In this document: positions 1,552 to 55,006 of the stretch, in pieces
How positions within the stretch are numbered: position 1 is the stretch's first letter
Layout: the number at the start of each line of letters is the position of its first letter
The notes under the pieces: generated by a model
Told to the model about the DNA's origin: nothing
The model's database searches: none
What the model saw: the letters and a program-made list of their open reading frames with translations, nothing else
Assembly: GCF_003075435.1 (NCBI RefSeq)
Contig: NZ_QCZJ01000008.1
Span: forward strand, 62,001 to 126,000
DNA length: 64,000 nucleotides
DNA from: Terrimonas sp.
GTDB taxonomy: Bacteria; Bacteroidota; Bacteroidia; Chitinophagales; Chitinophagaceae
Direction: 5' to 3'
Position numbers and translations under genes: made by a program

Positions 1552-1635
1552 GCCCAGATGGCGGAACTGGTAGACGCGTCAGACTCAAAATCTGGTATTC
1601 GCAAGGATGTGCAGGTTCGATTCCTGTTCTGGGCA
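1552..1635 (+). tRNA. tRNA-Leu (anticodon CAA)
   Basis: A complete cloverleaf can be drawn. The acceptor stem GCCCAGA pairs with TCTGGGC, followed by discriminator A. The anticodon stem TCAGA pairs with TCTGG around the loop CTCAAAA, giving anticodon CAA. A long variable arm typical of class II leucine tRNAs is present, and the T arm is GCAGG-TTCGATT-CCTGT. CCA is not encoded. An integrase gene begins about 365 bases downstream, so the 3' end of this tRNA is the probable integration target of the ICE. Confidence 0.97.
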
Positions 1636-1640
1636 CTGTA

Positions 1641-1679
1641 AAAGCTTTGTAAGTCATTGATTTACAAAGCTTTTTTGTT
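1641..1679 (+). terminator. Rho-independent terminator of tRNA-Leu
   Basis: A perfect 12-bp stem (1641-1652 with 1662-1673) has a 9-nt loop and is followed by a T-run to about 1677. It lies five bases after the tRNA. Confidence 0.85.
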
Positions 1680-1680
1680 T

Positions 1681-1999
1681 TATGCTTGTCAAATAATTGT
1701 CACTTTTTTACGCTTTCTACCGCTGTTTTTGACAATCAAATGACAAGCAGCATGACAAGCAGTTTTCTCACATTCTCAGCGCTACTTTTTCTGCGCTTTT
1801 TAGAATTACACTATTTAATAGAACACTGCGAATCGTTACCACCATAGTTTCGAATTGAACGAGAGTGTCATCTTCAACTCCATTTTACATTAGTCGATAA
1901 ACTTGATGGGCAAAAACTAAACATCTCAAAGTCGCTTCATTTTATTTTATTTGAAGATTATCAATGAGGTGTGATTTACTCAGATTTAAAATTGCGCGC
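1681..1999. other. Left ICE end (attL side) with integrase arm-site-like repeats
   Basis: This non-coding stretch between the tRNA terminator and the integrase holds two direct copies of ATGACAAGCAG at 1740-1750 and 1752-1762. An inverted copy, GCTTGTCA, lies at 1684-1691, with related TTGTCA/TGACAA half-copies near 1698 and 1730. Closely spaced repeats beside an integrase gene are what arm-type binding sites of lambda-like tyrosine recombinases look like; the assignment is inference. A small GC-containing stem (AGCGC...GCGCT) sits around 1788-1810. Confidence 0.5.
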
Positions 2000-17584: not shown

Positions 17585-19622
17585 CATATCGGATGATGAT
17601 ATTCGCTATGCAGAAAAAATACTTTTATCTGACGGAAAAGAATTTGACGATGAACGAAAAGCATTTATCCGCAATCTTAGTACAATAGATTTACAAGCCG
17701 TTCCAGGCAGTGGGAAAACAACAGCTTTGTTAGCAAAGTTGCTTATTATAGAACGGAAACTGCCATTTCCCGATGGGTCAGGAGTTCTTGTTATATCTCA
17801 TACTAATGCAGCCGTTGACGAAATAAAAGAAAAAATTCAGAAGCATTGCCCCAAACTTTTTTCTTATCCAAATTTTATTGGCACAATACAAAGTTTTGTT
17901 GATGAATTCTTGGCTATTCCGTTTTACATTTCAAAGTTTAAGAAAAAACCTATAAGAATAGACAATGAAATATACAACGAAAAGATAAAAAGTTGCCTTG
18001 ATAAAATTTGGCTACATAGGTTTAATTTAAGCCAAGAAGTCAACAACAAGGTTGCTCATATCAAAAACAACAATGAGGCTTTGTTTTATAATTTTAGGTT
18101 TCAATTTTCAAACGAAATCCAATTAGTTAAAAAGTTAAACGATGATATTTTAGAAATTAAAAAGCCGAGAGGCAATACAAGACCTCAAAACTATCGTGAT
18201 TATACGCAGCAAGAAAAGCGAGACGTGTATAATTGGTTTTTGGAGTTCAAAAAAGTAATTCTCAAATCGGGTATTTTACACTTTGATGACGCTTATTTTT
18301 TAGCGGATGTTTACTTGAACAAGATTACAGCTATAAAAAACATTTTACAAAAACGTTTTGCGTATGTTTTTGTAGATGAAATGCAGGATATGGATACTCA
18401 CCAATATAATTTGCTGGAAAAGACTTTTTATGATGACGGCAACGGCGTTTCGATAATTCAAAGAATTGGCGACAAAAATCAAGCAATTTATCATTCTTCA
18501 AATTCTGTTAAAACTGTAGAAGTTTGGCAACTAAGAGCAAATCCTGAAAATATTTTAAACTTAATAGGCAGTCAAAGACTAAGCAAGCCAATTGCAGATG
18601 TTGTAAAAAAATTCGCTTTATATAATGATGCCAATTTTGATATAATAGGGTTAAATGAATGTGATATAAAACCACATATTTTAGTTTTTGAAACTGAAAC
18701 GATTGCAAGTATCATTCCTTGTTTTGCTCAAATAGTAAAGAAATACAAAGAAAATAGCAGGCTGAAATCAAAAAGAGATTTTAAAGACATTAAAGTTGTT
18801 TGTTGGAATACAGACTGGAAAGAAGATGAAACAAGTCGCAACGATGCAACAAAACTACGTTTAGAAGATTTTTATAAAGGTTTCAAAAAAGAAAAAGGGA
18901 AACCAAAACAAGACTATAATAACCTGAAAAGCTATTTATTATATTACGAGAAAAGGCAGACATTAGAACCTGTTCGGAAAAATGTATTAAACGCTTTTTT
19001 GAAAATATTACGACTGGAAAACATCAACACTACAGACGACAGACCCTACACAAAGAAAAAACTAATTGACGTTATACGTGAAAAAGACATTGAAAAAGGC
19101 AATAAAAAATATGACGAATTAAATTTTAACCTTTACAATTGGGCAATCGGAATAATCAGAGAAAAAACAAACGAAGTTTGGGAAGGAATAAAAGCATACG
19201 TTCCGACTTTGCTTGAAATGTTTGACAAAACAATTTCCAATAGTTCAGATTTCATCAATAATGACAATGTTGAAATTCTCCCAGAAAATGCTGAAGTTTT
19301 AGCAATAACCAACCATTACAGAGAAGAGGAGCTTGAAATTGAAATTACAAGCGTTCACGCAGTGAAAGGGCAAACGCATTGTGCGACTTTATATTTAGAA
19401 TCATGTTATCAAGGGAAACACGAATCTGAAAGATTATCAACACAATTTTTGGGTAATAGTTTTAATGATACAAAAGTTCATCATAAAAGTTCCGTCAAGA
19501 TGGCTTATGTCGGCTTTTCGCGACCAACGGATTTGCTTTGCATTGCTATTCACAAAGACAGATTTGATAAATTTCTTCGGGATATTAACATTGAGGAATG
19601 GGAAATAATAAATGTTTCTTGA
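17568..19622 (+). CDS. UvrD/PcrA-like superfamily 1 helicase (GajB-like)
   Basis: 684 residues. Walker A is LQAVPGSGKTTALLAKL (42-58), motif Ia VISHTNAAVDEI, motif II FVDEMQDMD (DEMQD at 270-274), motif III IGDKNQAIYH, motif V SVHAVKGQTH, and motif VI MAYVGFSRPTDLL near the C-terminus. All core SF1A motifs are present, so it should be an active translocase. Its start overlaps the OLD nuclease gene by 17 bases. In Gabija the GajB helicase activates the GajA nuclease; this protein is longer than the GajB I recall (about 500 residues), with extra sequence between motifs III and V. Confidence 0.88.
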   Translation: MPQEINISDDDIRYAEKILLSDGKEFDDERKAFIRNLSTIDLQAVPGSGKTTALLAKLLIIERKLPFPDGSGVLVISHTNAAVDEIKEKIQKHCPKLFSYPNFIGTIQSFVDEFLAIPFYISKFKKKPIRIDNEIYNEKIKSCLDKIWLHRFNLSQEVNNKVAHIKNNNEALFYNFRFQFSNEIQLVKKLNDDILEIKKPRGNTRPQNYRDYTQQEKRDVYNWFLEFKKVILKSGILHFDDAYFLADVYLNKITAIKNILQKRFAYVFVDEMQDMDTHQYNLLEKTFYDDGNGVSIIQRIGDKNQAIYHSSNSVKTVEVWQLRANPENILNLIGSQRLSKPIADVVKKFALYNDANFDIIGLNECDIKPHILVFETETIASIIPCFAQIVKKYKENSRLKSKRDFKDIKVVCWNTDWKEDETSRNDATKLRLEDFYKGFKKEKGKPKQDYNNLKSYLLYYEKRQTLEPVRKNVLNAFLKILRLENINTTDDRPYTKKKLIDVIREKDIEKGNKKYDELNFNLYNWAIGIIREKTNEVWEGIKAYVPTLLEMFDKTISNSSDFINNDNVEILPENAEVLAITNHYREEELEIEITSVHAVKGQTHCATLYLESCYQGKHESERLSTQFLGNSFNDTKVHHKSSVKMAYVGFSRPTDLLCIAIHKDRFDKFLRDINIEEWEIINVS

Positions 19623-19636: not shown

Positions 19637-20863
19637 ATGATTGATTTTTTTACAAAAGGTGATACGCTGGTTCTACGCTATATTGCTGAATTTGCAAACT
19701 CACCTGATTGGGTAAGAGAGACTATTAAAGTCAAAGGTTACGTGAGGCTTAAAAAGACTTTTTATTTTGAAGAAGACGACATTCTAAATGATAGTGAATT
19801 TGGCGAGGAAACTAAAATAGATGATTTTGATGACCCTGATACGGAACAAGTCACTTACTTTCTATTCGCAAAACTTACCGGAGATTATTATAAGGTCAAA
19901 AAAGGAATACTCATTGATGACTTCGATATATTTATACACAAGGATGTTTCATTAAGTACAATTTTTTTTGTCGCTGATTCAGACGTATCAGTTTTTAGGG
20001 TAATCAAGAATATATCCTTAAACAATTTATACTTAGGTGGTGATTATCCAAGTGCTGTACCCATTGAGGAATTTGAAAGGCTCTTAAAATATTTCCCAAC
20101 TTCTTATGAAAGGAGAAAATATGTTGAAGCACGAATTGCATCCCTGCTAAGGAATTATTTAGACGGCATCAAGGATGCCGAAAAGATATATCAGAAGCAT
20201 CTAAATACAAAGCTATCTAAACAAGGTACGGATTTAGCTAAAGTTTTTCAGAATGTTGAACTCGTGAAATATCAGACAATCCTTGAAAAATTACAGGAAA
20301 TGCTAAAAGACGAAAATCAGTATAATGAGCATCAGTGGCAGGAAGAAATTTTACAGATTATTTTGTTACTCTATCCGAAATATATTTTTGCTTTTAAGTC
20401 AGTTCCAATACAAGCAAAATTGGCAGATGGAATAAGAGATAAACAGCTTGATTTTCTTTTAGTGGATTCCAATGGATATGTTGATGTTATTGAAATAAAG
20501 AAACCTTTTGAGAATGCCATTATGACTAAAGGTTTTTATCGTGAAAATTATATTCCTCTTAGAGAACTTTCAGGAACAGTTATGCAAATTGAAAAATACA
20601 TTTACTATTTAAACCGCTGGAGTTTAGAAGGAGAGAAATTTTTAAGTACAAAATATAAAACACAATTACCCGAAGGTTTTGATATTAAGATAGCAAATCC
20701 AAGTGGAGTAATTATTATGGGGAGAGAAAACAATTTGTCGCCTGGACAAAAAGATGATTTCGAGGTGGTTAAAAGAAAGTATAAAAATATTGTTGACATT
20801 ATTACTTATGACAATTTATTAGAACGATTACAGTTTACAATTGAACAAATTCGGAAAATTTAA
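19637..20863 (+). CDS. Shedu-type nuclease (SduA-like, DUF4263)
   Basis: 408 residues. The N-terminal part is variable and beta-rich. The C-terminal DUF4263 nuclease domain starts around 232 with QWQEEILQIILLLYPKYI, continues RDKQLDFLLVDSNGYVDVIE and IKKPFENAIM, and ends PSGVIIMGRENNL. The PD-(D/E)xK residues are probably D272 and E286-x-K288. The later REYIPLRELSGTVMQIEKYI-like helix (as RENYIPLRELSG here) is also typical of SduA. Shedu normally works as a single-gene defence system. Here it starts 14 bases after the helicase stop, so it is cotranscribed with the Gabija-like pair. Confidence 0.85.
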   Translation: MIDFFTKGDTLVLRYIAEFANSPDWVRETIKVKGYVRLKKTFYFEEDDILNDSEFGEETKIDDFDDPDTEQVTYFLFAKLTGDYYKVKKGILIDDFDIFIHKDVSLSTIFFVADSDVSVFRVIKNISLNNLYLGGDYPSAVPIEEFERLLKYFPTSYERRKYVEARIASLLRNYLDGIKDAEKIYQKHLNTKLSKQGTDLAKVFQNVELVKYQTILEKLQEMLKDENQYNEHQWQEEILQIILLLYPKYIFAFKSVPIQAKLADGIRDKQLDFLLVDSNGYVDVIEIKKPFENAIMTKGFYRENYIPLRELSGTVMQIEKYIYYLNRWSLEGEKFLSTKYKTQLPEGFDIKIANPSGVIIMGRENNLSPGQKDDFEVVKRKYKNIVDIITYDNLLERLQFTIEQIRKI

Positions 20864-28926: not shown

Positions 28927-29256
28927 ATGGGAGTTACAAAGACTGAAATATTTACCGAGCAGCAAAATCGTTTGGCTATCACTTTAAAGGCACTGGCCCA
29001 TCCTGCACGTATAGCCATCCTGCAATATATCGTTAAGCAAAATGCCTGTATCTGTAATGATCTGGTAGAAGAACTTGGGTTGGCACAAGCAACCATTTCC
29101 CAACATTTGAAAGAACTGAAAAGTATAGGCATCATAAAGGGGAATATTGAAGGTACAAGTATTTGTTACTGTATTGATGAAAAAGTATGGCAGCGGGTTA
29201 AAAAGGAACTCAATATCTTCTTTGCAGATAACGTGGGCATAGAGAAATGCTGTTGA
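28927..29256 (+). CDS. arsR: ArsR-family arsenite-responsive repressor
   Basis: 109 residues forming one winged helix-turn-helix. ALAHPARIAILQYIVKQNAC starts the DNA-binding domain, the recognition helix is LAQATISQHLKELKSIGI, and the wing is GNIEGTSICYCIDEKVW. Cys41 and Cys43 (ACICNDL) correspond to the As(III)-binding cysteines of ArsR, and a terminal Cys-Cys pair may add a ligand. It heads a five-gene rightward operon and probably represses it until arsenite binds. Confidence 0.92.
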   Translation: MGVTKTEIFTEQQNRLAITLKALAHPARIAILQYIVKQNACICNDLVEELGLAQATISQHLKELKSIGIIKGNIEGTSICYCIDEKVWQRVKKELNIFFADNVGIEKCC

Positions 29257-29315
29257 GCATTTTTTTTGAATACATTAATCGTAATAAAGCAATATAGCAA
29301 TCAAACAAAAATATC

Positions 29316-29783
29316 ATGAAACTGTCAGAAATCAAAAACATCCTACCAACATTAAATAATGTTGAATTTCAGTTAGAAGACGGAACATTTGTTCCCGAAC
29401 ACTTCCATGTTACCGAAGTAGGAACAGTCACAAAACATTTTATTGACTGTGGTGGAACCATCCGGGATGAGAAAGTGGTAAACTTCCAATTATGGAATGC
29501 AGACGATTACGAACACCGTTTGAAGCCAACAAAGCTGCTGAACATCATTAAGCTTTCCGAGGAAAAATTAGGAATGGAAAACGTTGAAATCGAAGTGGAA
29601 TACCAAAGCAACACCATTGGGAAATACGATCTGGATTTCAACGGTAAAAACTTCGTACTAAAAAGCAAGGCAACAGCTTGTTTAGCGCAGGACGCTTGCG
29701 GCATTCCTGCACAAAAGCAAAAAGTAAACCTTTCTGAACTGAAAAACAGTGCTTGCTGCGCACCTAATTCCGGTTGCTGTTAA
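29316..29783 (+). CDS. DUF6428-type protein of the arsenic operon
   Basis: 155 residues. The first 110 residues (MKLSEIKNILPTLNNVEFQL, VPEHFHVTEVGTVTKHFIDC, FQLWNADDYEHRLKPTKLL) match the DUF6428 family that I associate with ars operons. The tail carries two cysteine groups: CLAQDAC, then SACCAPNSGCC at the extreme C-terminus. Clustered thiols in an arsenic context suggest arsenite or metal binding, but no biochemical role is known to me. It lies 59 bases after arsR and 25 before the phosphoesterase gene. Confidence 0.75.
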   Translation: MKLSEIKNILPTLNNVEFQLEDGTFVPEHFHVTEVGTVTKHFIDCGGTIRDEKVVNFQLWNADDYEHRLKPTKLLNIIKLSEEKLGMENVEIEVEYQSNTIGKYDLDFNGKNFVLKSKATACLAQDACGIPAQKQKVNLSELKNSACCAPNSGCC

Positions 29784-29808
29784 CTAAACCATATAAACAA
29801 TCAGAGAT

Positions 29809-30582
29809 ATGAAAATTGCATTGTTCAGTGACATTCACGCTAATCTTCCTGCATTGGAAGCCTTTTTTAAGGATGTAGAAACAAGAAACCCCGATAGCAT
29901 TTATTGCCTGGGCGATTTGGTGGGTTATAACATTTGGCCTAACGAAGTAATAAACGAAGTCCGTAAACGTAAAATCCCAACTATTGCGGGCAATTATGAT
30001 TTTGGCATCGGGCGCATGAGCAATGATTGTGGCTGTGCCTACAAAACCGACCACGAAAAAGCCAACGGCAACGTTTCCATTTCGTTTACCAATTCCATTA
30101 TACAAGACGAAGAAAGAGCCTTCCTGCGTACACTTCCGGCACACATCAAGGTGGAATTTCAGTTGAACGAAGACAAACTGAACCTGTTTTTGGTTCACGG
30201 AAGTCCCCGAAAAATAAACGAGTATCTGTTTGAGGACAGAGAAGAAAAAAGTATGCTTCGCATTATGGAACAGGCGGACGCAGACATTATGTGTTTCGGT
30301 CATACGCACAAACCTTACCACCGGATTTTAAATTCAGGCATTGACGGGCAAGACCATTTCCGCCACGCTATAAATATTGGTTCGGTGGGCAAACCCAAAG
30401 ACGGCAATCCGCAGGGCGGTTATGTAATGCTCACTATCAACAGCAATAGTTCTATCCTCGACAAAGAAAGTATCCGGGTAGAATTTATCCGTTTTGACTA
30501 TGATATTGAAAAAGCGGCAAAAGCTGTAGAGGAAAGCATACTGCCTGATGAATATGCTGAAAATCTAAGAAGGGGTTACTAA
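29809..30582 (+). CDS. Calcineurin-like metallophosphoesterase in the arsenic operon
   Basis: 257 residues. The dimetal motifs are in order: SDIHAN (D8, H10), GDLVGY (D36), GNYD (N62; Tyr replaces the usual His of GNHD), VHGSP, and GHTHKP near residue 165. This is the YfcE/MJ0936-like branch of metallophosphoesterases. A DCGCAYKTDHE segment gives extra cysteines. The substrate is unknown. It is the third gene of the operon, with 25 bases upstream and 16 bases to the H-protein gene. Confidence 0.85.
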   Translation: MKIALFSDIHANLPALEAFFKDVETRNPDSIYCLGDLVGYNIWPNEVINEVRKRKIPTIAGNYDFGIGRMSNDCGCAYKTDHEKANGNVSISFTNSIIQDEERAFLRTLPAHIKVEFQLNEDKLNLFLVHGSPRKINEYLFEDREEKSMLRIMEQADADIMCFGHTHKPYHRILNSGIDGQDHFRHAINIGSVGKPKDGNPQGGYVMLTINSNSSILDKESIRVEFIRFDYDIEKAAKAVEESILPDEYAENLRRGY

Positions 30583-30598
30583 ACTAAAATTAAAAGCA

Positions 30599-30979
30599 AT
30601 GGAATTTCCAAACGATTTGTATTACTCAAAAGAACATACCTGGTTGCGTGTACAGGATAATACCGGAACCATTGGCATTACGGAATTTGCCCAAAAAGAA
30701 TTAGGCGAAATAGTATATGCGGACTTATCCAATATCGGGTACAATTTTCAGCAGGATGAGGTTTTCGGTTCTGTTGAAGCCGTAAAAACTGTCAGTGATT
30801 TGTTTATGCCTGCTTCGGGAAAAGTCATTGAAACCAACCAACAACTTTTAAAAACACCGACCTTTATTAACGATGATCCTTACGGGAACGGTTGGTTGGT
30901 TAAAATAGAAATTCAGGACAATAGCGAACTCAAAAACTTACTTACCGCAGCACAATACGTACAAGTCACAAACAATTAG
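30599..30979 (+). CDS. gcvH: Glycine cleavage H-like lipoyl carrier protein in the arsenic operon
   Basis: 126 residues, the normal GcvH length. Family features are [40 protein letters not shown], the lipoylation hairpin [20 protein letters not shown] with acceptor Lys63, and [15 protein letters not shown]. GcvH carries lipoyl groups in glycine cleavage and in lipoate relay. No gcvT, gcvP or lipoate ligase gene is nearby. It sits 16 bases after the phosphoesterase gene and 5 before acr3. Reduced lipoyl dithiols are classical arsenite targets, so a role in arsenic binding or as a spare carrier is a reasonable inference. Confidence 0.88.
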
Positions 30980-30984
30980 AACCG

Positions 30985-32022
30985 ATGCAGCCAAAACTAA
31001 AATTCCTTGACAGGTACTTAACGCTATGGATTTTTCTTGCCATGATTTTAGGTGTGGGATTAGGTTATTTGTTTCCCAATATTTCAAACGTAACCAACTC
31101 CCTTTCCGTAGGTACAACCAATATTCCCTTAGCCATAGGCTTGATACTGATGATGTACCCGCCATTGGCAAAAGTGGATTATTCGCTATTGCCAATGGCG
31201 TTTCAGGACAAAAAAGTAATGTCCTTATCCTTATTGCTGAATTGGATAATCAGCCCCGCCTTAATGTTTGTCCTGGCCATCATTTTCCTGAAGAACGAAC
31301 CTGGTTATATGACCGGCTTAATATTGATTGGATTGGCAAGGTGTATTGCAATGGTTATCGTTTGGAATGATTTGGCGGGCGGTAACAGGGAATATGCGGC
31401 TTTATTGGTAGCGTTGAACAGTATCTTTCAGGTAGTGTTTTACAGTTGTTATGCCTGGCTGTTCATCAATGTACTGCCTGCAAAATTAGGCTTGGGGAAT
31501 TTCAATATTTCCGTACCGATTAAAGATGTTACGGAAAGTGTTTTGATTTATTTAGGCGTACCTTTTTTAGCAGGCTTTTTAAGCCGTTATTTCCTCATAA
31601 AATCAAGAGGCAAAGAATGGTACAACAGAAAGTTCATACCTGTTATATCTCCCATTACGCTGTATGCTTTGCTGTTTACCATTGTGTTGATGTTCAGCTT
31701 GAAAGGTGACAAAATATTGGAACTACCCTTAGATGTGTTGAGAGTAGCTATTCCGTTAGTCATCTACTTTGTATTGACATTCTTCGTCAGTTTCCTTATC
31801 GGTAAGTCATTGAACATCCCTTACGAGAAAAACGCTTCCGTTTCCTTTACGGCCACAGGTAACAATTTTGAATTGGCAATAGCCGTTGCCATTGCAGTTT
31901 TCGGCATCCATTCGCAACAGGCATTTGTAGGCGTAATTGGGCCTCTGGTAGAGGTTCCTGTCTTGATCCTGTTGGTACGGGCAAGTTTATGGTTAAAAGG
32001 AAGATTATACACACGTAATTAA
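30985..32022 (+). CDS. acr3: ACR3-family arsenite efflux permease
   Basis: 345 residues with about ten membrane helices. The ACR3 features are [34 protein letters not shown] and the conserved Cys120 in [18 protein letters not shown], followed by [16 protein letters not shown] and [22 protein letters not shown]3 exports arsenite with the proton motive force. It is the last gene of the ars operon and is followed directly by a terminator hairpin. Confidence 0.95.
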
Positions 32023-45732: not shown

Positions 45733-46383
45733 GATCATAATTGGTGCCGGACATACTTTTTAACTATTTTCCCAAAACCAACTGCGAAATAGCTATAATG
45801 CCCGGACTTAGTATTTTATTCGAATGCAATATAAAAGTAAAACATTAATGACTGTTTCGTTTGTGGGAATTAAATGGAAAATCCCCGCAGAGAACTACAG
45901 GGACTTTGAGGTTTTTAGCCTCATTAAACCTTATCCTATGAAAACATAGGAGATGATTAACTTCCCATTTTAGTTGCAAGTAGAAACAAAAGATAACCCT
46001 GATAGTTTGTTGCTGTAGATATAACAAACGACATGTTTATAATAAAATAAATAATATTCCTATAACTTGGTTATAGATGTTTTCATAGGTTAGCTAACGC
46101 GACTTCTTTAAGTCGAGTTTTATTTTACGAGAATAGTACTGGATTTCTTGATTTTACTAAAAAAATCAATGTAATAAAGGGATATGTGATGGTAATTAGA
46201 TGGAAAAAAATAAAGCTAACGAAGGGCTGATACCTAGATTGGACCATAACTTCATTTATTTCAAACCTTGGTCTAAAAATAGTATTGACTGCTCTTATAT
46301 TTCTTAACTGTCAATATAGATTCTATGGGATATCAATAGTGTAACGAACATATTGCATTGAAAACATAGCTAAACATTCATAA
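45733..46383. other. Gene-poor border zone with several small hairpins
   Basis: About 650 AT-rich bases with no convincing gene. Stem-loops seen are TGAGG/CCTCA (45907-45923), TCCTATG/CATAGGA (45934-45951), CTATAAC/GTTATAG (46060-46076) and CGACTT/AAGTCG (46100-46115). A 60-codon frame at 45845-46027 lacks protein-like composition. The right end of the ICE may be in or near this zone. Confidence 0.4.
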
Positions 46384-46674
46384 TCATTTATAATTATTCT
46401 TTTTTGTTTTACTGGAATAATTTAATTCTTTGAGTATAACATCAATAATTAGTTGGGGTTCTATATCAAGCAAATTAGCTAAATCAATTACATGTTTAAT
46501 TGAGAACTCATCAGGTCTGTATAACTTTTGAATGTATCGGCTATGATTAATGCCAAGAGCTTTAGCAATCATAGTTGGATATAATTTTTCTATATCCTTC
46601 ATTCGCTTAATACTAAAGCTTTGAAACATCAAACGAATTACTTTGTACTGCGTTTCATTTTCTTCCTTGGCCAT
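46384..46674 (-). CDS. Small XRE-like helix-turn-helix protein
   Basis: 96 residues from MAKEENETQYKVIRLMFQSF; an upstream in-frame ATG at 46722 is less likely. The core MKDIEKLYPTMIAKALGINH, SRYIQKLYRPDEFSIKHVID, LANLLDIEPQLIIDVI has the five-helix pattern of Cro/XRE-type DNA-binding domains. It lies alone between the border zone and the sigma factor locus, reading away from it. It may regulate its own promoter or the element border. No specific family is recognised. Confidence 0.65.
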   Translation of the reverse strand: MAKEENETQYKVIRLMFQSFSIKRMKDIEKLYPTMIAKALGINHSRYIQKLYRPDEFSIKHVIDLANLLDIEPQLIIDVILKELNYSSKTKKNNYK

Positions 46675-46836
46675 ACCATTATAAAACGAAAAGGTACAGT
46701 TGTGAAAAAATGACGTAAGCAATAATTTACTATACGTATTTAATTACTTACGTTTAGTATCTTTTTTAGTATTTTTACTTCGCTATAGATATTTTGCGAA
46801 TCTTCATAAACTAATTGAAGCTTTCGCTTTGAGTCT

Positions 46837-46944
46837 CGCTATTGAAACGTCGGAAATTTCAAGACCATGAGACGATAAGCAAGGGCTCACGTTTTGGCGT
46901 GGGCTCCCTTATTCGTGGTCAGGCCTCCGACGGCCTCAATAGCG
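46837..46944. ncRNA. 108-nt nested self-complementary element (candidate structured RNA)
   Basis: The pairs nest from outside in. CGCTATTGA (46837-46845) pairs with TCAATAGCG (46936-46944). CGTCGGA (46848-46854) pairs with TCCGACG (46926-46932). GACCA (46863-46867) pairs with TGGTC (46916-46920). AAGGG (46881-46885) pairs with CCCTT (46906-46910). CTCACG (46886-46891) pairs with CGTGGG (46898-46903, one G-T pair) around a TTTTGG loop. A long closed hairpin of this order is unlikely by chance. It lies 70 bases before the sigma factor gene. It could be a leader RNA, a small RNA or a palindromic mobile element; the class is unknown. Confidence 0.55.
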
Positions 46945-47013
46945 GTAAGTGGAGTTCCATGCCATACTTTTTTAGCATACTTCCGGGCTCAAATTCACTT
47001 TTATGCAGCACAA

Positions 47014-47598
47014 ATGCCACAGGCGCAACCATACCATGCAGATGATTATGCCATTGCCTTTAGTAAAGGCGACGAACAGGCGCTTGCCCATTATTTTAGG
47101 GAGTTACACCCTGCTCTTACGCTCTATGCCAATCAGTGGGTTAAAGATTTTCCACTGGCGCAAGAAATAGCATCAGAAGCATTTGTAAAAACCTGGCAAA
47201 AACATTATAAGTTTAATAGATACGAAGGCATAAAAGCATATTTATATACCATTGTGCGAAGAGACAGCTATAAAGCCTCCAAAAAGTTGTGTCGCTCTGA
47301 AACATTTACCAGTGATGTTGTTGATATTGATACACCATTCAGCTTTCTTGTACGTGCAGAAACCTATCACTTTTTGTATGCTGCATTGCAAAAATTATCT
47401 CCCGGCAACAAAAGGGTGATCAGCATGTATTATCTTGAAGGTAAAACCACCGGCGAAATTGCACGAGAGCTCAATCTCCATCCACATACCGTACAAACCC
47501 AAAAACTTAGGGGTATTAAAGCACTTCAAAAACTACTCTATCCGGGTATTTTAGGCGTTTTGTGTCTGCTGGAAAAAATTTTCTTTTCAACTTTGTAG
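47014..47598 (+). CDS. ECF sigma factor, FecI-like (sigma-70 family)
   Basis: 194 residues from MPQAQPYHADDYAIAFSKGD. The frame is open upstream, but those residues are encoded by the structured element and are not sigma-like. Region 2 is ALAHYFRELHPALTLYANQW, LAQEIASEAFVKTWQKHYKF and IKAYLYTIVRRDSYKASKK. Region 4 is LQKLSPGNKRVISMYYLEGK, TTGEIARELNLHPHTVQTQK. This is the RNA polymerase sigma-70 family typical of Bacteroidota, paired with the FecR gene 54 bases downstream. It should drive the SusC/SusD cassette when signalled through the STN-type receptor. Confidence 0.9.
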   Translation: MPQAQPYHADDYAIAFSKGDEQALAHYFRELHPALTLYANQWVKDFPLAQEIASEAFVKTWQKHYKFNRYEGIKAYLYTIVRRDSYKASKKLCRSETFTSDVVDIDTPFSFLVRAETYHFLYAALQKLSPGNKRVISMYYLEGKTTGEIARELNLHPHTVQTQKLRGIKALQKLLYPGILGVLCLLEKIFFSTL

Positions 47599-47652: not shown

Positions 47653-48849
47653 ATGAACAACAATCCATACAGTCATATGGATAAGGACGCCCATCGTGTG
47701 GCCTACCTTATTGCCGGATATATACGCAACACACTTAGTAAGGCTGAACATGAAGAGTTGGATGATTGGGTGAATACGAGCGATGCCAATATGAAATTGT
47801 TTGAAGACCTGACAGACGAAAGAAATATTGAAGCTAATCTGCAAATGATGGATGGAGCGCAGTCTGAACAAGTTTTTAAAGAGCTGCAGCAACAAGGCCG
47901 ATTTGAAAAACCAAAAGCCGGGAGGAAGATCAATATGGTATGGATGTCTGCCGCTACGGCAATTATATTATTAGGTGTGTTTCTTTTGTGGCGTTCAACC
48001 AATACTTCTTCCTCCCAAAATACCACGCCCCCCATAGCACACAATAATGTGTTGCAGCCGGGAGGTAATAAAGCTACGCTTACGCTACCCGATGGTTCGG
48101 TTATAGATCTTGCCAGTATGCAAAATGGTTTTCTTTCCGGTAATACCGCTCAGCATATCTCAAAAGAAAATGATAGCAGACTGGTGTATCAACACTCAAA
48201 ATATAATAGAGAGGAAGGAATGCATACGCTTACAATTCCTGCTGGTGGGCAATTTCAGCTAACACTAAATGATAACACAAAAGTGTGGCTTAATTCAGAA
48301 ACGATTTTACGTTACCCTGCCGCATTTTCCGACAACGAGCGCAAAGTTGAACTTACAGGTGAAGCGTATTTTGAAGTATCACCGAATGCTCATGCACCTT
48401 TTAAAGTAGTAATGGGTAATAATGATACTGTATCTGTATTGGGCACTCACTTTAATGTGCAAACATACCCCGGTGATAAAGAAAAAGCAGTAACACTTGT
48501 TGAAGGCAAGGTGCTGGTGCAAAACAAGATTAATAAAAAAGTATTATTACCAGGCATGCAGGCACGAATTCAAGGTAACTCAATTAACACTATACCAGAT
48601 TCAGATGTTGAAGAGATTACAGCCTGGAAAAAAGGATTATTTGTATTTCACGATGCACCCATTGAATACATAATGAACCAGGTGGCAAGATGGTACAATG
48701 CAAAAGTTGTGTATGAGGGTGAAATTAAGCACCAGTTTAATGCTACTATTAACAGGAATGAGCCTTTGGAAAAGTTGCTTCGCCTCTTGCAGTTAAATGG
48801 CTATGTAAAATTTAAAACTGAAAATAATATTATTTATGTATATCCCTGA
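47653..48849 (+). CDS. FecR-family anti-sigma factor
   Basis: 398 residues. The cytoplasmic N-terminal segment (VAYLIAGYIRNTLSKAEHEE) is followed by one membrane helix (MVWMSAATAIILLGVFLLWR) and the periplasmic FecR domain: NKATLTLPDGSVIDL, TIPAGGQFQLTLNDNTKVWL, ERKVELTGEAYFEVSPNAHA, PFKV and SVLGTHFNVQTYPGD. The C-terminal DUF4974-like domain has FHDAPIEYIMNQVARWYNAK. It relays the receptor signal to the adjacent sigma factor. Confidence 0.94.
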   Translation: MNNNPYSHMDKDAHRVAYLIAGYIRNTLSKAEHEELDDWVNTSDANMKLFEDLTDERNIEANLQMMDGAQSEQVFKELQQQGRFEKPKAGRKINMVWMSAATAIILLGVFLLWRSTNTSSSQNTTPPIAHNNVLQPGGNKATLTLPDGSVIDLASMQNGFLSGNTAQHISKENDSRLVYQHSKYNREEGMHTLTIPAGGQFQLTLNDNTKVWLNSETILRYPAAFSDNERKVELTGEAYFEVSPNAHAPFKVVMGNNDTVSVLGTHFNVQTYPGDKEKAVTLVEGKVLVQNKINKKVLLPGMQARIQGNSINTIPDSDVEEITAWKKGLFVFHDAPIEYIMNQVARWYNAKVVYEGEIKHQFNATINRNEPLEKLLRLLQLNGYVKFKTENNIIYVYP

Positions 48850-48907: not shown

Positions 48908-48979
48908 CGAATGTTCGGGTCAACCCAAAAATCAATTGAGCAAACAACTGTATTAAATAAACCCAAACACTGCAAAAGT

Positions 48980-51900
48980 ATGAAAATAGAAGCTCGTGTT
49001 CGAAATCACCTTACCTTATTCTATATGAAACTAATTCCTATGATGTTACTTCTCGTTTGCTTACAGGCTACAACGAGAGGATATGGACAAACAACTGTTA
49101 CCCTTAACTTAAACAATTCATCTCTGGAGAATGCGCTTAAAGACATAAGTAGTCAGACAGGATATTCATTCATCTACACCCGGGCACAGTTAAAGCATTC
49201 TCAAAATATAACAGCTCAGTTAAAAAATATAAGCCTACAGGATGCATTAGATAAATGCTTTTTCAACCAGCCGTTACATTATACGATTGAAGATAAATAT
49301 GTAGTTGTAATAGATAAACTGGCAAATGGTTCTCCTCTGTCTGAGCAAACTATAGATGTATCTGGAAAGGTTGTTGATGAAAAGAGCAATGCACTTCTTA
49401 GAATAACCGTAACTACGCTCAGGTCTAAAAAATCAACCTATACAAATGAAAAAGGAGAGTTTACATTGAAAGATGTTTTTGAAAACGATATCCTTGTATT
49501 CACTTCAGTAGGTTATACGAAGGCTGAAATTCCAATTGATAAAAAGACATTTCATAATATAACAATGAAGTTGGTGATAGGGCTACTTGACGAAACTGTT
49601 ATAATGGCCTATGGCAAAACAACACGTCGTTTGAACACGGGAAATATTGGAAAAGTTAGTTCGGATGTAATCAGTCAACAACCAGTACTTGACCCACTTT
49701 CAGCATTGCATGGAAAAGTTCCAGGATTAGTTGTTACACAATCAAGCGGATTGCCAGGCGCTTCAATAAAAATACAGATACGAGGTCAAAACTCATTGAC
49801 ACAAGGATCAGAGCCGCTTATCATTGTTGATGGGGTACCTCTTGCTACAAATAACCAGCCCGTTAATGCTCTCCGGTCTTTACTAAGTGGAGGTGGGCAA
49901 ATTGAAGCAGGATTAAGCCCAATAGCTGGTATCAATCCGCTTGATATAGAAAGTATAGAAATTCTGAAAGATGCTGACGCAACTGCTATTTATGGAAGTA
50001 GAGGAGCAAATGGTGTGCTGCTTATTACTACCAAAAGGGGAGCACCAGGGAAAACTATGGTGTTTGCGAATTTTTACACTTCATGGAGTAAAGTTCCAAA
50101 GTTGCCAAAGATGTTAAATACTACAGAGTATTTACAGATGCGCAGAGAGGCATTTGCCAATGATGGCTTAGCGCCATCGGAAAACCCTTCATCACCGGGC
50201 TACGCTCCAGATCTCTTTCTTTGGGATACAACAAGAGAAACCAATTTCAGTAAAACAATGCTTGGCAATGCAGCACACAGCTACAACGGGCAAGCGGGAC
50301 TTTCTGGTGGCAGTGAAAATATGAAGTTTTTCTTTAGTGCCGGACATAACAAAGATGGTACGATCTTCCCGGGAGATATGGGTTCAGATAGAATATCACT
50401 TAGCAATAACCTGAATTATAGTACGAATAATAAGAAATTGACATTTCAATTATCTACAAACTACTCCAGTTTAAAAAACAATTTAATTGCATCTTCTTCT
50501 CTTAATTCTTTTCTGGCTTTACCGCCTAATACGCCATCACTCTATACTCCTGATGGTAAGCTAAACTGGCAGGAAGGAGGTTATTCATTTACCAACCCAT
50601 TGGCGTATTTATTGCAAAAATATAATGCAGTAACCGACAATCTCATAAGCAATTTGCAGATCAACTATAAAATCACAAAAGGGCTTTCGATCCGTAGCAG
50701 CTTCGGATATAATTCGATACAGGTTTCAGAAAAGTCACTTATGCCTATAGCTTCGCAGGACCCTGCATATAACCCACAAGGTAGCCAGACAATAGCAAAT
50801 AGCTCTAATAAAGGCTGGATTATTGAACCTCAAACTGAATACGAAACTACAATTGGTAAGGGGAGGCTGAATCTTTTGGTTGGTTCCACTTTTTCGCAAC
50901 AGAGGCAAAATGTTATAGAAATTAATGCCAGCGGTTATAACAATGATCAATTGATTGACGCTCTTAGTGCAGCATCTTTTATTAATAGTACTAATCGATT
51001 TTCTGATTATAAATACACCGCTTTATTTGGAAGAATAAATTATAACTGGCGGCAGAAATACATCATAAATTTTACAGGAAGAAGAGATGGATCAAGTCGC
51101 TTTGGACCGGGAAAACGTTTTGCAAATCTTGGGGCAGTAGGGGCTGCCTGGTTGTTTCAAGAAGAGCACCTTATCCAAAAAATATTGCCTTTTCTTAGTT
51201 ATGGTAAAATACGTGCAAGCTATGGTTTAACGGGGAATGATCAAATTGGGAACTATAAATATTTGGATATGTGGGCAATTGATTACAAAAAATACCAGGA
51301 GACCACCGCACTATATCCTTCTGAACTTTTTAATCCGCAATATGGCTGGGAAACAAACAGAAAATTTGAAATATCTTTAGATTTATCCTTTTTAAAAGAC
51401 AGGATATATTTTTCTTCAACCTACTTTAATAATAAAAGCGGAAATCAATTAGTCAATTACTCATTACCGGCACAAACTGGTTTCGGGAGTATTATCAGTA
51501 ATTTTCCTGCTGTTGTGGAGAATAAGGGTTTTGAATTTGTGCTTGAGGCAACACCAATTGATATCAAAAATTTTAAATGGTCTTTTGCAGGAAATGTAAG
51601 CGTTCCATCTAACAAATTATTATCATTTCCTAACCTAAATACATCAAGTTATCAAACAACATATGTAGAGGGTAAGTCACTGAGCATTATATATAAACTT
51701 CACTCACTGGGAGTTGATCCAAGTACCGGAGTTTTCTTATTCGAGGATACCAATAATGATAATATTATATCAATGGGGACTGATTATCAAGTAACGGGAA
51801 AAACCGATCCCCGCTTTTACGGAGGAGTCAGAAATACACTTGCATTCAAAAAAATAGAGTTAGACATTTTCTTTGATTTTAGAAAGCAAACAGGTTTTAA

Positions 51901-52300
51901 TTATCTCAATGCCATCTATGGAAACGCTCAAATACCCGGGTTTGCTACTAATCAACCAACATATGTGCTTGAAAGATGGCAGAAGCCGGGAGATTTAAGC
52001 ATGATTCAGATGTTTACAACAAATAGACGTAGTGCCGCTTATCAAACCAGATCAAATTACAGGTATTCTGATGCGGTCTATAGTGATGCCTCATATATAA
52101 GACTAAGAACAATTTCCATCTCCTGGAGACTGCCAACAATAGTATTTAAAAAAATCAGCACAAACAGTTCAAGAATATTTGTATCGGCGCAGAACCTGTT
52201 TACCATTTCAAATTATAAAGGCACAGATCCCGAAATACAAAACTATTATTCATTACCATCATTAAGAACTATTGCAATAGGTGCTAAATTAAATTTCTAA
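48980..52300 (+). CDS. SusC/RagA TonB-dependent receptor with STN signalling domain
   Basis: 1106 residues from MKIEARVRNHLTLFYMKLIP; a longer start at 48911 is less signal-like. A signal peptide ends near RGYGQ. The STN domain follows (SSLENALKDISSQTGYSFIY; ITAQLKNISLQDALDKCF), then a carboxypeptidase-regulatory-like domain (VDVSGKVVDEKS-type), the plug (LHGKVPGLVVTQSSGLPGAS, GQNSLTQGSEPLIIVDGVPL, ESIEILKDADATAIYGSRGA) and the beta-barrel ending GTDPEIQNYYSLPSLRTIAI. The STN domain and the preceding sigma/FecR genes mean it both imports and signals. The ligand is unknown. Confidence 0.95.
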   Translation: MKIEARVRNHLTLFYMKLIPMMLLLVCLQATTRGYGQTTVTLNLNNSSLENALKDISSQTGYSFIYTRAQLKHSQNITAQLKNISLQDALDKCFFNQPLHYTIEDKYVVVIDKLANGSPLSEQTIDVSGKVVDEKSNALLRITVTTLRSKKSTYTNEKGEFTLKDVFENDILVFTSVGYTKAEIPIDKKTFHNITMKLVIGLLDETVIMAYGKTTRRLNTGNIGKVSSDVISQQPVLDPLSALHGKVPGLVVTQSSGLPGASIKIQIRGQNSLTQGSEPLIIVDGVPLATNNQPVNALRSLLSGGGQIEAGLSPIAGINPLDIESIEILKDADATAIYGSRGANGVLLITTKRGAPGKTMVFANFYTSWSKVPKLPKMLNTTEYLQMRREAFANDGLAPSENPSSPGYAPDLFLWDTTRETNFSKTMLGNAAHSYNGQAGLSGGSENMKFFFSAGHNKDGTIFPGDMGSDRISLSNNLNYSTNNKKLTFQLSTNYSSLKNNLIASSSLNSFLALPPNTPSLYTPDGKLNWQEGGYSFTNPLAYLLQKYNAVTDNLISNLQINYKITKGLSIRSSFGYNSIQVSEKSLMPIASQDPAYNPQGSQTIANSSNKGWIIEPQTEYETTIGKGRLNLLVGSTFSQQRQNVIEINASGYNNDQLIDALSAASFINSTNRFSDYKYTALFGRINYNWRQKYIINFTGRRDGSSRFGPGKRFANLGAVGAAWLFQEEHLIQKILPFLSYGKIRASYGLTGNDQIGNYKYLDMWAIDYKKYQETTALYPSELFNPQYGWETNRKFEISLDLSFLKDRIYFSSTYFNNKSGNQLVNYSLPAQTGFGSIISNFPAVVENKGFEFVLEATPIDIKNFKWSFAGNVSVPSNKLLSFPNLNTSSYQTTYVEGKSLSIIYKLHSLGVDPSTGVFLFEDTNNDNIISMGTDYQVTGKTDPRFYGGVRNTLAFKKIELDIFFDFRKQTGFNYLNAIYGNAQIPGFATNQPTYVLERWQKPGDLSMIQMFTTNRRSAAYQTRSNYRYSDAVYSDASYIRLRTISISWRLPTIVFKKISTNSSRIFVSAQNLFTISNYKGTDPEIQNYYSLPSLRTIAIGAKLNF

Positions 52301-52302: not shown

Positions 52303-53691
52303 ATGAATACAAAAAATCATATAACATTAACCCTCTTCATATTCTTTACAAGTATTACCCAATCATGCAAAAAATTTGTAGAGGTTGACCCACCTATAGA
52401 TAAGATGAATGCTACAGCAGTTTTTAAAAATGATGTTACGGCGACATCTGCCATACTCGGCATTTATACAACAATGATGGGACCAACATCTCCTGTAATC
52501 TCTACCGGAGGAGTGACTTTATATACGGGCTTATCAGCTGATGAGCTTTACAATACGAACCTATCTGATGCAGCAACTTCTGAATTTTTTGACAATGCAT
52601 TACTCCCTAATAATTCTGTTTTGCTTAACGACTTTTGGTTTAAAGGATACAACATTATTTATGGCACCAATGCCTGTATTGTGGGATTAGAGTTTAATAA
52701 TGACATTTCAACACCCTTAAGAAATCAGCTTTTGGGAGAAGCTCTCTTTGCAAGATCTTTTATGTATTATTATCTTGTAAATCTATTTGGTGATGTACCT
52801 CTGTTGTTAAGTACAGAGTATATTGAAAACGGAAAAAAACAAAGAACTCCGGTATCTCAAATATATGCTCGCATTATTGAAGATTTAAAAACCGCAAGGG
52901 ACTTACTAGAAACTTCTTATCCTACCAGCGGTCGCGTCCGGCCTAACAAATGGTCAGCAACTGCTCTGCTTTCACGAATCTACCTTACCCTTGGCGAATG
53001 GAGTTTTGCTGAGCAGCAAGCGTCTTCTATTATTAATTCAGGGGCTTATTTACTTGAGCAAAATCTTAACAACGTTTTTTTATCGGAAAGTAGTGAGACC
53101 ATTTGGCAGTTAATGCCTGTAACTTCTGGCTACAATACAGCTGAAGGAAGAACTTTTATACCAACTACATCAGCCACGAACATTCCCACCTTCCCATTAA
53201 CAAATTATTTGTTGGAAGCATTTGAAAAAGATGATATGAGAAAAGAAAATTGGGTAGGTTCAAAAACCGTATCAGGGCAAACTTATTATTATCCATATAA
53301 ATATAAAATATGGGATTATGGGCAACCTGTAAGAGAGTATTATGTAGTTTTCCGTTTGGCAGAGCAGTACTTAATACGAGCTGAATGTTATGCACGGCAA
53401 GATAAAATCATTGAATCAAAAAACGATCTTAACATAATCAGAAATCGTTCGGGATTAGCTAATACTTTAGCTAACACATCTAAAGAACTCGTGTCTGCAA
53501 TTGAGAACGAAAGACGCATTGAACTTTTTGCAGAATGGGGACACCGCTGGTTCGACTTAAAAAGAAATAAAAAAGCCTCCGAAATTTTGGCTCTAATAAA
53601 ACCCGCATGGCAGGTAACTGATACTCTGTACCCTATTCCTTCTGGCGAAATTTTAAAAAATTCTTCTTTACAACAGAATAAAGGTTATTGA
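52303..53691 (+). CDS. SusD/RagB outer-membrane nutrient-binding lipoprotein
   Basis: 462 residues. A lipoprotein signal with Cys in TSITQSCKKFVEVDPP is followed by the SusD-like domain (ATAVFKNDVTATSAILGIYT; QLLGEALFARSFMYYYLVNL, FGDVPLLLS) and the conserved C-terminal block ENERRIELFAEWGHRWFDLK, TDTLYPIPSGEI. It starts two bases after susC and is coupled to it. Together they form the outer-membrane import complex. Confidence 0.93.
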   Translation: MNTKNHITLTLFIFFTSITQSCKKFVEVDPPIDKMNATAVFKNDVTATSAILGIYTTMMGPTSPVISTGGVTLYTGLSADELYNTNLSDAATSEFFDNALLPNNSVLLNDFWFKGYNIIYGTNACIVGLEFNNDISTPLRNQLLGEALFARSFMYYYLVNLFGDVPLLLSTEYIENGKKQRTPVSQIYARIIEDLKTARDLLETSYPTSGRVRPNKWSATALLSRIYLTLGEWSFAEQQASSIINSGAYLLEQNLNNVFLSESSETIWQLMPVTSGYNTAEGRTFIPTTSATNIPTFPLTNYLLEAFEKDDMRKENWVGSKTVSGQTYYYPYKYKIWDYGQPVREYYVVFRLAEQYLIRAECYARQDKIIESKNDLNIIRNRSGLANTLANTSKELVSAIENERRIELFAEWGHRWFDLKRNKKASEILALIKPAWQVTDTLYPIPSGEILKNSSLQQNKGY

Positions 53692-53722: not shown

Positions 53723-55006
53723 ATGATGAAAATTGCATTAAAGGCACAAGCATATATCTGTGAAATAGTTATATTGCTTCTACTAACTATAAGTGCCAAG
53801 TCTCAAGGTTTGCAAATTGGAGATAGAATCTCAGATTTCGAGCTAAAAAAAATCATAAACTATAAATCGTCTAGTGCTCGTTTAACTGATTTTACCAACG
53901 GCAAAGCACTTTTGATAGACTTTTGGTTTAGTTCTTGTAGTTCTTGTATTGAAAGCTTTACGAAACTCGATTCCTTACAAAATGAATTTCAAGACAATCT
54001 AAATATACTCCTAGTCACATACGAACCTAAAGAAAAAGTATTCAAAACATTTAATACGATAAGAAGAATAAGTCATGTAAAACTGCCCACGGTAGTATCA
54101 GATACCTTACTACATCTTGCTTTCCCGCATCTCTCTGCTCCCCATCAAATATGGATAGATAAAGATGGGAAAATTATAGCAATTACTGACCATAGCCAAC
54201 TTATTCGTAAGAATATTCGTGCGTTAATTACAAGCGAAGAGCTAAACCTCCCATTGAAAAAAGATGATTTTAAGTTTTCTTTTGAGTTGCCGCTTGCAAG
54301 TATCTTTGCTAACAACAATACAATAAAATATTCTTTTTTCTCCAATTATCAACCAGGCATTCCCTCCTCAAGTGGATTTTACATAGATCCAGAGAGTGGT
54401 CTTTTAATAGCAAGGAGCACTAACGTTGATTTTCAAAAATTATATGTACAGGCTTATAATCAATGGGGTAACGATTTTAATTATAATAGAATAATTTTAG
54501 AAGATAATGTTTTAGATCGACTTAAACCCAATGGTCAGTCCATTAATTCCTTTTGCTTTGAAATTTGGTGGAAGGATACTTCGAAAGTGAATGCATGCTC
54601 AGAAATGCAAATCGAACTAGATCGATTTTTTAAGATTAGAAGTTTCTCGGAAAAGCGGAAAATGCAGTGCATTATTCTAAGAGAAATTGGAGAAAAAAAA
54701 AGATATCAATCTCAGCTTGCTTCCGGAATAACAGATGCATATAGTAAGAATGATACGTTATTTTTAGATAATGTTAAATTACGATATCCAATTAAAAATA
54801 TCCTTAACTATGGCCGTTATGCATGGTCTCCATTTCAATTTATTGATGAGACAAATTATAAAGACCGAGTGAGCATTCAATTGCCTAAGAGATTTGAGAG
54901 CATAACTCAGGTGAATCAATTCTTAAAAGATTTTGATCTTGAAGTAAAAATTGAGGATAGATTAATAGATGTTATTGTAATTAAAGATGCTGTCGAAACC
55001 CAATAA
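53723..55006 (+). CDS. TlpA-like thioredoxin-fold protein with long C-terminal extension
   Basis: 427 residues. A signal peptide (to about residue 27) precedes a thioredoxin-like domain with LLIDFWFSSCSSCIESFTKL, a CxxC redox motif (CSSC), and APHQIWIDKDGKIIAITDHS. The C-terminal 260 residues include KYSFFSNYQPGIPSSSGFYI and SINSFCFEIWWKDTSKVNAC and are of unknown function, but such redoxin fusions often close SusC/SusD cassettes with STN receptors. It is probably periplasmic and 31 bases after susD. A role in disulfide handling of a ligand is inference. Confidence 0.78.
   Translation: MMKIALKAQAYICEIVILLLLTISAKSQGLQIGDRISDFELKKIINYKSSSARLTDFTNGKALLIDFWFSSCSSCIESFTKLDSLQNEFQDNLNILLVTYEPKEKVFKTFNTIRRISHVKLPTVVSDTLLHLAFPHLSAPHQIWIDKDGKIIAITDHSQLIRKNIRALITSEELNLPLKKDDFKFSFELPLASIFANNNTIKYSFFSNYQPGIPSSSGFYIDPESGLLIARSTNVDFQKLYVQAYNQWGNDFNYNRIILEDNVLDRLKPNGQSINSFCFEIWWKDTSKVNACSEMQIELDRFFKIRSFSEKRKMQCIILREIGEKKRYQSQLASGITDAYSKNDTLFLDNVKLRYPIKNILNYGRYAWSPFQFIDETNYKDRVSIQLPKRFESITQVNQFLKDFDLEVKIEDRLIDVIVIKDAVETQ

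Follow-up and report, generated by a model that had tools for sequence, protein, structure and literature searches.

What does a long self-complementary element do when it lies ahead of a sigma/FecR/SusCD gene cassette? SusCD operons are a hallmark of the Bacteroidota, and their control has been described mainly via sigma/anti-sigma pairs and sensor proteins. The element considered here was pointed out in a 64,000-nt stretch of Terrimonas sp. DNA (the whole stretch is hereafter the window), and an earlier note on this DNA had left the choice between a riboregulator of the cassette, a small RNA, a palindromic repeat and an attC-like recombination site.

A self-complementary rod as the core of a longer predicted leader

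Complementary blocks are indeed present at 46837-46944, as the earlier note had described, and surround a T-rich loop. The outer block pairs CGCTATTGA (46837-46845) with TCAATAGCG (46936-46944), and the second block pairs CGTCGGA (46848-46854) with TCCGACG (46926-46932). Further inside are GACCATGA (46863-46870) facing TCGTGGTC (46913-46920), ATAAG (46875-46879) facing CTTAT (46908-46912) and, innermost, GCTCACG (46885-46891) facing CGTGGGC (46898-46904). On the + strand the 108-nt rod folds at -52 kcal/mol compared with a shuffle mean of -29.1 (z -7.25), and none of 200 dinucleotide shuffles was as good, while the - strand of the rod folds less well (-45.9, z -5.62). The element lies, as the earlier note had it, between two genes, a small HTH-like one on the - strand and one encoding an ECF sigma factor (Table 1).

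The limits of the element proved to mark a real core but were too narrow, as likeness among homologues extends over approximately 46801-46973. Judged by this likeness, the 108-nt rod is the predicted core of a leader of about 173 nt on the + strand. Contrary to the statement that no open frame explains the element, ORFs do overlap the rod (one spanning 46842-47045, the other the sigma gene extended to a TTG). A coding explanation is nonetheless unlikely, because the length of the core, which ranges from 140 to 156 nt in 126 parsed homologues, varies freely and not by threes.

The start codon of the ECF sigma gene, placed by translation and by likeness to one homologous locus (L011), is located 40 nt past the U-run. 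The small HTH-like protein had no match in Pfam; its gene clusters (cluster 21) with the upstream genes of two other loci (L018 and L019).

Table 1. Predicted features of the leader and of the genes around it (positions in the window)
Feature	Position	Strand	Remarks
Small HTH-like gene, 96 aa	46384..46674	-	Divergent from leader; HTH by inspection and cluster 21
-7 promoter box TATTTTG	46790..46796	+	One base short of TAnnTTTG
Leader RNA, probable transcript to end of U-run, 173 nt	46801..46973	+	Limits from likeness; start inferred
P1, 5′ hairpin CTTCA/TGAAG	46802..46820	+	Conserved CTTC..GAAG
Segment 1, GCTTTCGCTTTGAGTCTCG	46820..46838	+	Partner of segment 2 in stop fold; duplex energies
Closing helix b, 5′ strand	46837..46845	+	Partner 46936-46944; covariation
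Hairpin A (GAAA/TTTC)	46844..46860	+	Loop CGTCGGA (46848-46854), half of contact c
Helix d, 5′ strand	46863..46870	+	Partner 46913-46920; covariation
Segment 2: TGAGAC, ATAAG, GCTCACG	46868..46891	+	Partner of segment 1 or segment 3
Segment 3: GGCGTGGGCTC C CTTAT	46896..46912	+	Antiterminator with segment 2, terminator with segment 4
Helix d, 3′ strand	46913..46920	+	Pairs with 46863-46870
Hairpin B	46921..46936	+	Loop TCCGACG (46926-46932), other half of contact c
Closing helix b, 3′ strand	46936..46944	+	Covariation
Segment 4: GTAAG TG GAG TT CCATGCC	46945..46963	+	Terminator 3′ strand; cognate duplex energies
Terminator U-run	46968..46973	+	T4 or longer near segment 4 in homologues
ECF sigma factor gene, probable ATG start	47014..47598	+	Pfam Sigma70_r4_2 and r2
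FecR-type anti-sigma gene	47653..48849	+	NCBIfam FecR model, E 6.7e-09, below its cut-off
SusC/RagA TonB-linked receptor	48911..52300	+	TIGR04056, E 1.8e-209, over cut-off
SusD-like lipoprotein	52303..53691	+	NF033071, E 4.3e-14, below cut-off
TlpA/ResA-like thioredoxin-fold protein	53723..55006	+	NF002854, E 6.7e-08, below cut-off

Occurrence of the leader

With blastn, a second copy was found in the window's genome at 78% identity, and homologues were found in 14 of 97 relatives (15 of 98 genomes counting the window's own). A degenerate pattern retrieved at least 118 stretches in GTDB species, the matches listed including Flavobacterium, Chryseobacterium, Niabella, Sediminibacterium, Terrimonas, Mucilaginibacter, Salegentibacter, Leeuwenhoekiella and Sunxiuqinia. 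These pattern stretches together with 22 blastn loci make up the main set of 140 loci, which is partly redundant (L028/L039, L017/L138 and L022/L142 look like identical places). As the pattern picks copies like that of the window, neighbour statistics from the main set describe that clade. A second set of 41 loci comprises 34 mostly divergent copies and 7 from the window's genome, one locus (L189) being the same place as L002.

The earlier note had proposed a covariance search and a count of copies as checks. Compensatory changes turned out to be abundant in homologues, and a covariance model of the rod (R1) gave matches at E <= 0.001 in 51 of 395 genomes of the phylum, with up to 8 candidates scored per genome. 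R1 recognised one place in the 64-kb window and at least 8 places in the window's genome (77-148 bits; 150 of 1335 candidates scored), a ninth row of 18.5 bits corresponding to the opposite strand of one of the eight. Because of the limited numbers of candidates scored, R1 copy numbers are lower bounds. Even with this many copies the element fits a repeat poorly, since the copies stand ahead of co-directional genes and the helices covary.

Rfam 15 had no match at the element up to E = 1 (window positions 46300-47300) and no gathering match in 17 carrier loci; in 14 further loci it gave four matches (tRNA twice, rteR and DUF805b), none of which was at the element. No such RNA was named in the literature searched, though the motif may stand without a name in a candidate table of a supplement. 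One study mentions a Bacteroidetes candidate of 106 bp in the vicinity of TonB, and HTH-XRE genes next to 100 candidates (PMC8040213), and another lists 64 structured 5′ regions (PMC9723704). We rate the leader as a new RNA family that would combine a known type of switch with an unusual junction.

Compensatory changes and a proposed read-through fold

A segment pattern parsed 126 of the 140 main-set loci, 14 being left unparsed. Thinning at 85% identity gave 58 sequences, of which L043, L051, L077, L084, L088, L103 and L148 were excluded by hand, and covariation was counted in an alignment (A2) of the other 51; another alignment (A1, 67/87 sequences) was not used for counts. In the 51 sequences, the rod (helices b, c, d, g and f) was paired in 92.4% of the cells versus 77.5% in shuffles. 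Moreover, 20 of its 36 pairs had changed on both sides, amounting to 264 such cells as compared with 84.8 in shuffles, a level reached by 0 of 500. When the partners were slid against each other, pairing fell to 30-43%. Mutual information, calculated from 116 sequences with no structure supplied, ranked pairs of b, c, d and a highest.

Helix c was paired in 98.6% of cells with 6 of 7 pairs double-changed, helix d in 86.3% (6 of 8 pairs) and helix b in 82.3% (7 of 9 pairs). The pairings of segment 3 were nearly complete (f, 100%; g, 98.4%; h+g′, 95.8%), and f and g are almost invariant in the 51-sequence alignment, with 0 and 1 double-changed pairs, respectively. The divergent copies were found with the rod model, and so the support that they lend to f and c is partly selected. 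Hairpin A was paired in 95.4% of cells with no pair double-changed, and hairpin B in 87.4% with 4 of its 5 pairs double-changed.

The purely nested rod described previously is present but incomplete: a second fold exists beside it, and what looks like the second helix of the rod probably arises by contact between two loops. The two halves of helix c sit in the loops of two possible hairpins, A and B. On this basis, the read-through fold is probably a four-way junction b/A/d/B with kissing loops, in which c would be the kissing contact. Alternatively, the fold may be a plain rod in which c is an ordinary helix.

A second predicted fold that excludes the first

The second, or stop, fold consists of helix a, hairpins A and B, and the terminator. 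It was paired in 94.5% of cells compared with 40-50% in slid controls, and it contained 60 double-changed cells versus 26.1 in shuffles (0 of 500 shuffles as high). Shuffles of this fold were still 91.1% paired because the strands hardly vary, and just 4 of 16 pairs in the terminator and 2 of 6 in helix a were double-changed.

Segments 1 and 2 pair over a longer stretch, at the end of which helix a lies. The 1:2 duplex had a mean energy of -15.3 kcal/mol as opposed to -7.5 kcal/mol when shuffled, all 126 parsed sequences were at or below -10, and one variable position was paired in 97 of 111. Across lineages, cognate 1:2 strands averaged -16.3, non-cognate strands -11.6 and shuffled strands -10.3, with 27 of 51 in the best tenth of their row. 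For the 3:4 duplex the corresponding values were -19.4, -12.9 and -10.0 (n = 51), with 30 of 51 in the best tenth; 45 of 51 were at or below -12 kcal/mol, and some of the 6 that miss this value probably do so owing to misassigned columns. In divergent copies such as L191 and L229 the strands of segments 3 and 4 have changed and yet still fit each other (by eye).

Segment 2 is unable to pair fully with segments 1 and 3 together, and likewise segment 3 with segments 2 and 4. Since both segments have competing partners, the two folds are mutually exclusive, and a mutual exclusion of predicted antiterminator and terminator hairpins is supported by comparison and computation. By computed energy, the stop fold lies on average 5.5 kcal/mol (sd 4.4; n = 121) above the read-through fold; the rod is favoured in 107 of 121 cases and the stop fold is lower in 14, with an energy model that includes no loop-loop contact. 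This preference for the rod implies that the stop fold requires a kinetic or ligand push. The two energies are thus close (-62.1 against -59.3 for the window's copy), and in the computation for L001 forcing the terminator brings 1:2 along.

Predicted promoter and terminator, and probable dependence of the downstream genes

Of 138 homologues, 111 carry an exact TAnnTTTG box at one fixed position, another 15 have one mismatch and 12 fit neither class; the window's own -7 box, which comes near the Bacteroidetes consensus but is one base short, was counted among these 12. The background frequency of the motif was 119 of 38602 positions. In F. psychrophilum the TAnnTTTG box is located at -12 to -5 (PMC9723704), which puts the inferred start of the leader near 46801. 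The box points to a promoter of the housekeeping type that would drive a transcript of about 173 nt.

At the 5′ end, P1 has CTTC..GAAG in 122 of 126 sequences, with a closing pair that is A-T in 94, T-A in 14 and other in 14, and a loop of 7-17 nt. A DNA operator was considered for this inverted repeat and rejected, its spacer varying from 7 to 17 nt. At the 3′ end, 121 of 126 sequences have T4 or longer no more than 12 nt from segment 4. A short G-G-(A)-C-T-C-A motif that is complementary to GAGTTCC of segment 4 was seen by eye after the U-run in the window (around 46983-46991) and in L011 and L117, and a further pairing between the two in read-through transcripts is possible.

The first downstream ORF of at least 100 aa within 1.2 kb was on the same strand as the leader in 126 of 127 main-set loci, 13 loci having no such ORF in the sequence examined. 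With a looser 65-aa test, the 41 further loci gave 38 on the same and 3 on the opposite strand, and one of the latter (L187) probably reflects a spurious ORF that covers a cl7-type gene. The gap between leader and gene was 80 nt or less in 19 of 112 parsed loci with a typed downstream gene, and a TAnnTTTG with room for a -33 box was found in none of these 19 gaps. Among the longer gaps, 3 of 93 contained a second TAnnTTTG promoter compared with 13.6 expected from base-shuffled gaps; the scan covered TAnnTTTG only, such that promoters of other sigma factors could escape it. The co-directional gene and the scarcity of consensus promoters in between suggest that the downstream genes need read-through from the leader.

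Genes associated with the leader

SusC was among the next genes in about 80 of the 140 main-set loci, and others had ECF sigma together with FecR, TlpA-like proteins or two unnamed families. A divergent HTH gene lies upstream in at least 118 of the 140 loci; several families are represented, and in some relatives the HTH is typed by Pfam. In several of the remaining 22 loci the upstream gene looks HTH-like, and five are without an upstream ORF in the sequence examined. Of the eight copies in the window's genome, three precede a cl7/cl10 pair and two a KKTSTKKG-type gene, and one each stands ahead of the sigma/FecR/SusCD cassette, of a TlpA-like gene with SusCD and of small ORFs; a small HTH-like divergent gene accompanies 7 of the 8 copies (partly by inspection). 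Family typing gave no identity for the cl7, cl10 and KKTSTKKG protein types.

At the divergent copies the HTH gene was mostly not recognised, and the genes behind them are very varied, DHFR-like and secreted proteins being among those seen by inspection. Such variety is unusual for a riboswitch that senses one metabolite.

A number of loci showed further features. DHFR-like genes were seen behind the divergent copies L210, L211 and L213, with excisionase- or topoisomerase-like genes near some of them (by inspection), and L210 also carries the rteR sRNA. In L192 and L193 a KKTSTKKG-type protein is preceded by a leader variant, L192 lying near an apparent type I restriction gene and L193 near a HEPN-like protein (by inspection). 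In four Flavobacterium loci (L038, L045, L054 and L104) another hairpin-like stretch (GGCCCTC...GAGGACC), whose loop is similar, was noticed by eye between the leader and SusC.

A proposed switch

Among the options of the earlier note, a riboregulator of the sigma/FecR/SusCD cassette is the best supported, given the compensatory changes, the nearly invariable co-directional gene and the scarce promoters in between. We consider it likely that the leader is a cis-acting transcription attenuator which gates the sigma/FecR/SusCD genes. Comparison shows the helices and their mutual exclusion, the promoter and U-run, the co-directional gene and the scarcity of consensus promoters in between; from these we infer transcription of the leader, a functional terminator, the kissing nature of contact c and a signal that shifts the balance between the two folds.

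The promoter would start a leader of approximately 173 nt with four switching segments, of which 1:2 (46820-46838 / 46868-46886) could form first as the polymerase leaves the promoter. If the b3′ and d3′ strands together with hairpin B then displaced 1:2, the junction would close. The closed junction (b, d and contact c) would hold the 2:3 antiterminator (46875-46912) shut and thereby block the terminator; with the 5′ strand of the terminator hidden in the rod or junction, the polymerase would read into the sigma/FecR/SusCD genes. If 1:2 persisted instead, b and d would lose the bases that they share with it and segment 3 would be free, in which case segments 3 and 4 would form the terminator stem that, followed by U6, would stop transcription 40 nt before the sigma gene.

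The most likely point of action of an effector would be the choice between 1:2 and the junction. A metabolite riboswitch is possible, but with so mixed a gene set the effector is more readily seen as some general signal, as a protein or as the polymerase. Tentatively, the leader could be a phylum-wide combination of a kissing-loop junction and a trp-like segment switch, used generally to gate operons for surface uptake, ECF-sigma operons and those acquired horizontally. On this tentative reading, the gate would respond to one common cellular signal, or to the state of RNA polymerase, rather than to an operon-specific metabolite, and it also stands before some sigma-Cas12f operons. If true, a widespread leader attenuator would be an added layer of RNA control over SusCD, ECF-sigma and even sigma-Cas12f operons.

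Alternative explanations

The leader could instead be an independent, trans-acting small RNA present in multiple copies, which would end at its own terminator and perhaps pair with SusC-type mRNAs. The presence of its own promoter and U-run and of at least eight copies in the window's genome is in line with such a role, for which the paralogous FopS sRNAs acting on susC mRNAs are a precedent (PMC11697453). However, 126 of 127 loci have a co-directional gene next to the leader, few consensus promoters lie in between and 19 gaps of 80 nt or less have no room for one. Moreover, a plain sRNA needs no alternative pairing of segment 3, and FopS is only about 65-70 nt long (PMC11697453). The small RNA option of the earlier note thus retains its promoter and U-run but is weaker than the cis-acting reading, and we regard it as unlikely.

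It is also conceivable, and in our opinion rather improbable, that the leader is gated by the divergent HTH protein or by another RNA-binding protein, which would bind the junction and set termination. The HTH-like gene accompanies most main-set loci in several families, but the association of several HTH types with one RNA family argues against this explanation, as does the failure to recognise the HTH gene at most divergent copies. XRE domains, furthermore, normally bind DNA. We think it more likely that the divergent HTH protein controls the promoter. A dedicated NusG paralogue (known types are UpxY- and LoaP-like) was rejected as a common trans factor and does not seem to be required, as 13 of 41 carriers examined (of 51) have a single NusG-domain match.

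We give very little credence to an element acting at the DNA level, i.e. a palindromic repeat, a MITE or an attC-like recombination site. The long inverted structure, the several copies and the location of some of them on or near mobile-element-like genes (by inspection) would fit such an element, whereas the fixed place between a promoter box and a co-directional gene and the compensatory changes would not. The same arguments, co-directional genes behind the copies and covarying helices, told against the palindromic repeat suggested earlier in spite of the eight or more copies. The attC-like option also failed: the core sites of attC are RYYYAAC and GTTRRRY, and neither occurs on either strand of 46780-47000. 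No near relative of the window's copy was found with blastn in plasmid and phage records, and the exact pattern had no match in viral contigs, both being searches that divergent copies would escape.

RNA, sigma gene and Cas12f-like gene are consecutive in six loci, namely L088, L105, L113, L204 (genome G194), L205 (G186) and L206 (G418), while sigma-Cas12f genes without an R1 match in front were found in genomes G045, G172 and G466 (loci L207, L208 and L209). The Cas12f-like genes of L088, L105 and L113 were assigned by clustering, and those of L105 and G194 were also typed by family. That the leader is a guide-RNA scaffold for the Cas12f-like protein is nevertheless most improbable, since 44 of the 51 R1-positive genomes, including the window's, gave no Cas12f match (E <= 1e-15, up to 4 candidates per genome; the R1 and Cas12f surveys each covered 395 phylum genomes, assumed to be the same set), and no variable guide stretch precedes the U-run.

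Other features of the window

Elsewhere in the window, a Gabija-like pair (GajA, 15719-17584; GajB, 17568-19622) is followed by a Shedu-like SduA (19637-20863), and these genes sit among genes that resemble a conjugative element. At 1552-3163, a tRNA-Leu (caa) gene with an integrase-like gene behind it (by inspection) may mark the left end of the conjugative element; an integration repeat of 14 nt or more was sought between 1401-2100 and 40001-64000 and not found. At 28927-32022 there is a row of genes for an ArsR-like regulator, DUF6428, a phosphatase-like protein, a glycine cleavage H-like protein and an SBF-family transporter, the ArsR-like and phosphatase-like genes having been assigned by inspection. 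This row resembles an arsenic operon with an odd GcvH-like member.

Comparison with known systems

The long imperfect rod and the similar length of the leader recall 6S and 6S-Flavo RNA (RF00013 and RF01685). Unlike 6S, the leader occurs in several copies, each before a gene. The assignment was rejected as neither Rfam model matched at the element; both also gave no match in the window's own genome, where the 6S-Flavo result carries little weight away from the element because that search was silent in control genomes as well.

Loci for RNA-guided transcription by dCas12f and sigmaE have reportedly been described in a 2025 preprint, and sigma-Cas12f operons are one of the gene sets found behind the leader. 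They differ in that most carriers of the leader are without a Cas12f match and the leader shows no guide.

With riboswitches that have an antiterminator/terminator platform, the leader shares a conserved 5′ fold coupled to a terminator switch, and a conserved leader fold with compensatory changes, as is required of a riboswitch, was indeed found. Its probable loop-loop contact resembles that of the purine class. On the other hand, the gene set behind the leader is not uniform, and Rfam 15 has no match at the element.

Within the literature searched, the published RNA family that comes closest, as one of Bacteroidota with an effect on SusC, is FopS of Bacteroides (PMC11697453). Both are multi-copy RNA families tied to the control of SusC; FopS, of about 65-70 nt, acts in trans at the start region of the susC mRNA (PMC11697453), whereas the leader of about 173 nt lies before the gene.

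In its layout the leader is like the four-segment attenuators of the trp type, which have the same 1:2, 2:3 and 3:4 pairings, the last of them being an intrinsic terminator before the operon. It differs from these in that its 2:3 pairing would be embedded in a conserved junction and that the genes are not those of amino-acid biosynthesis.
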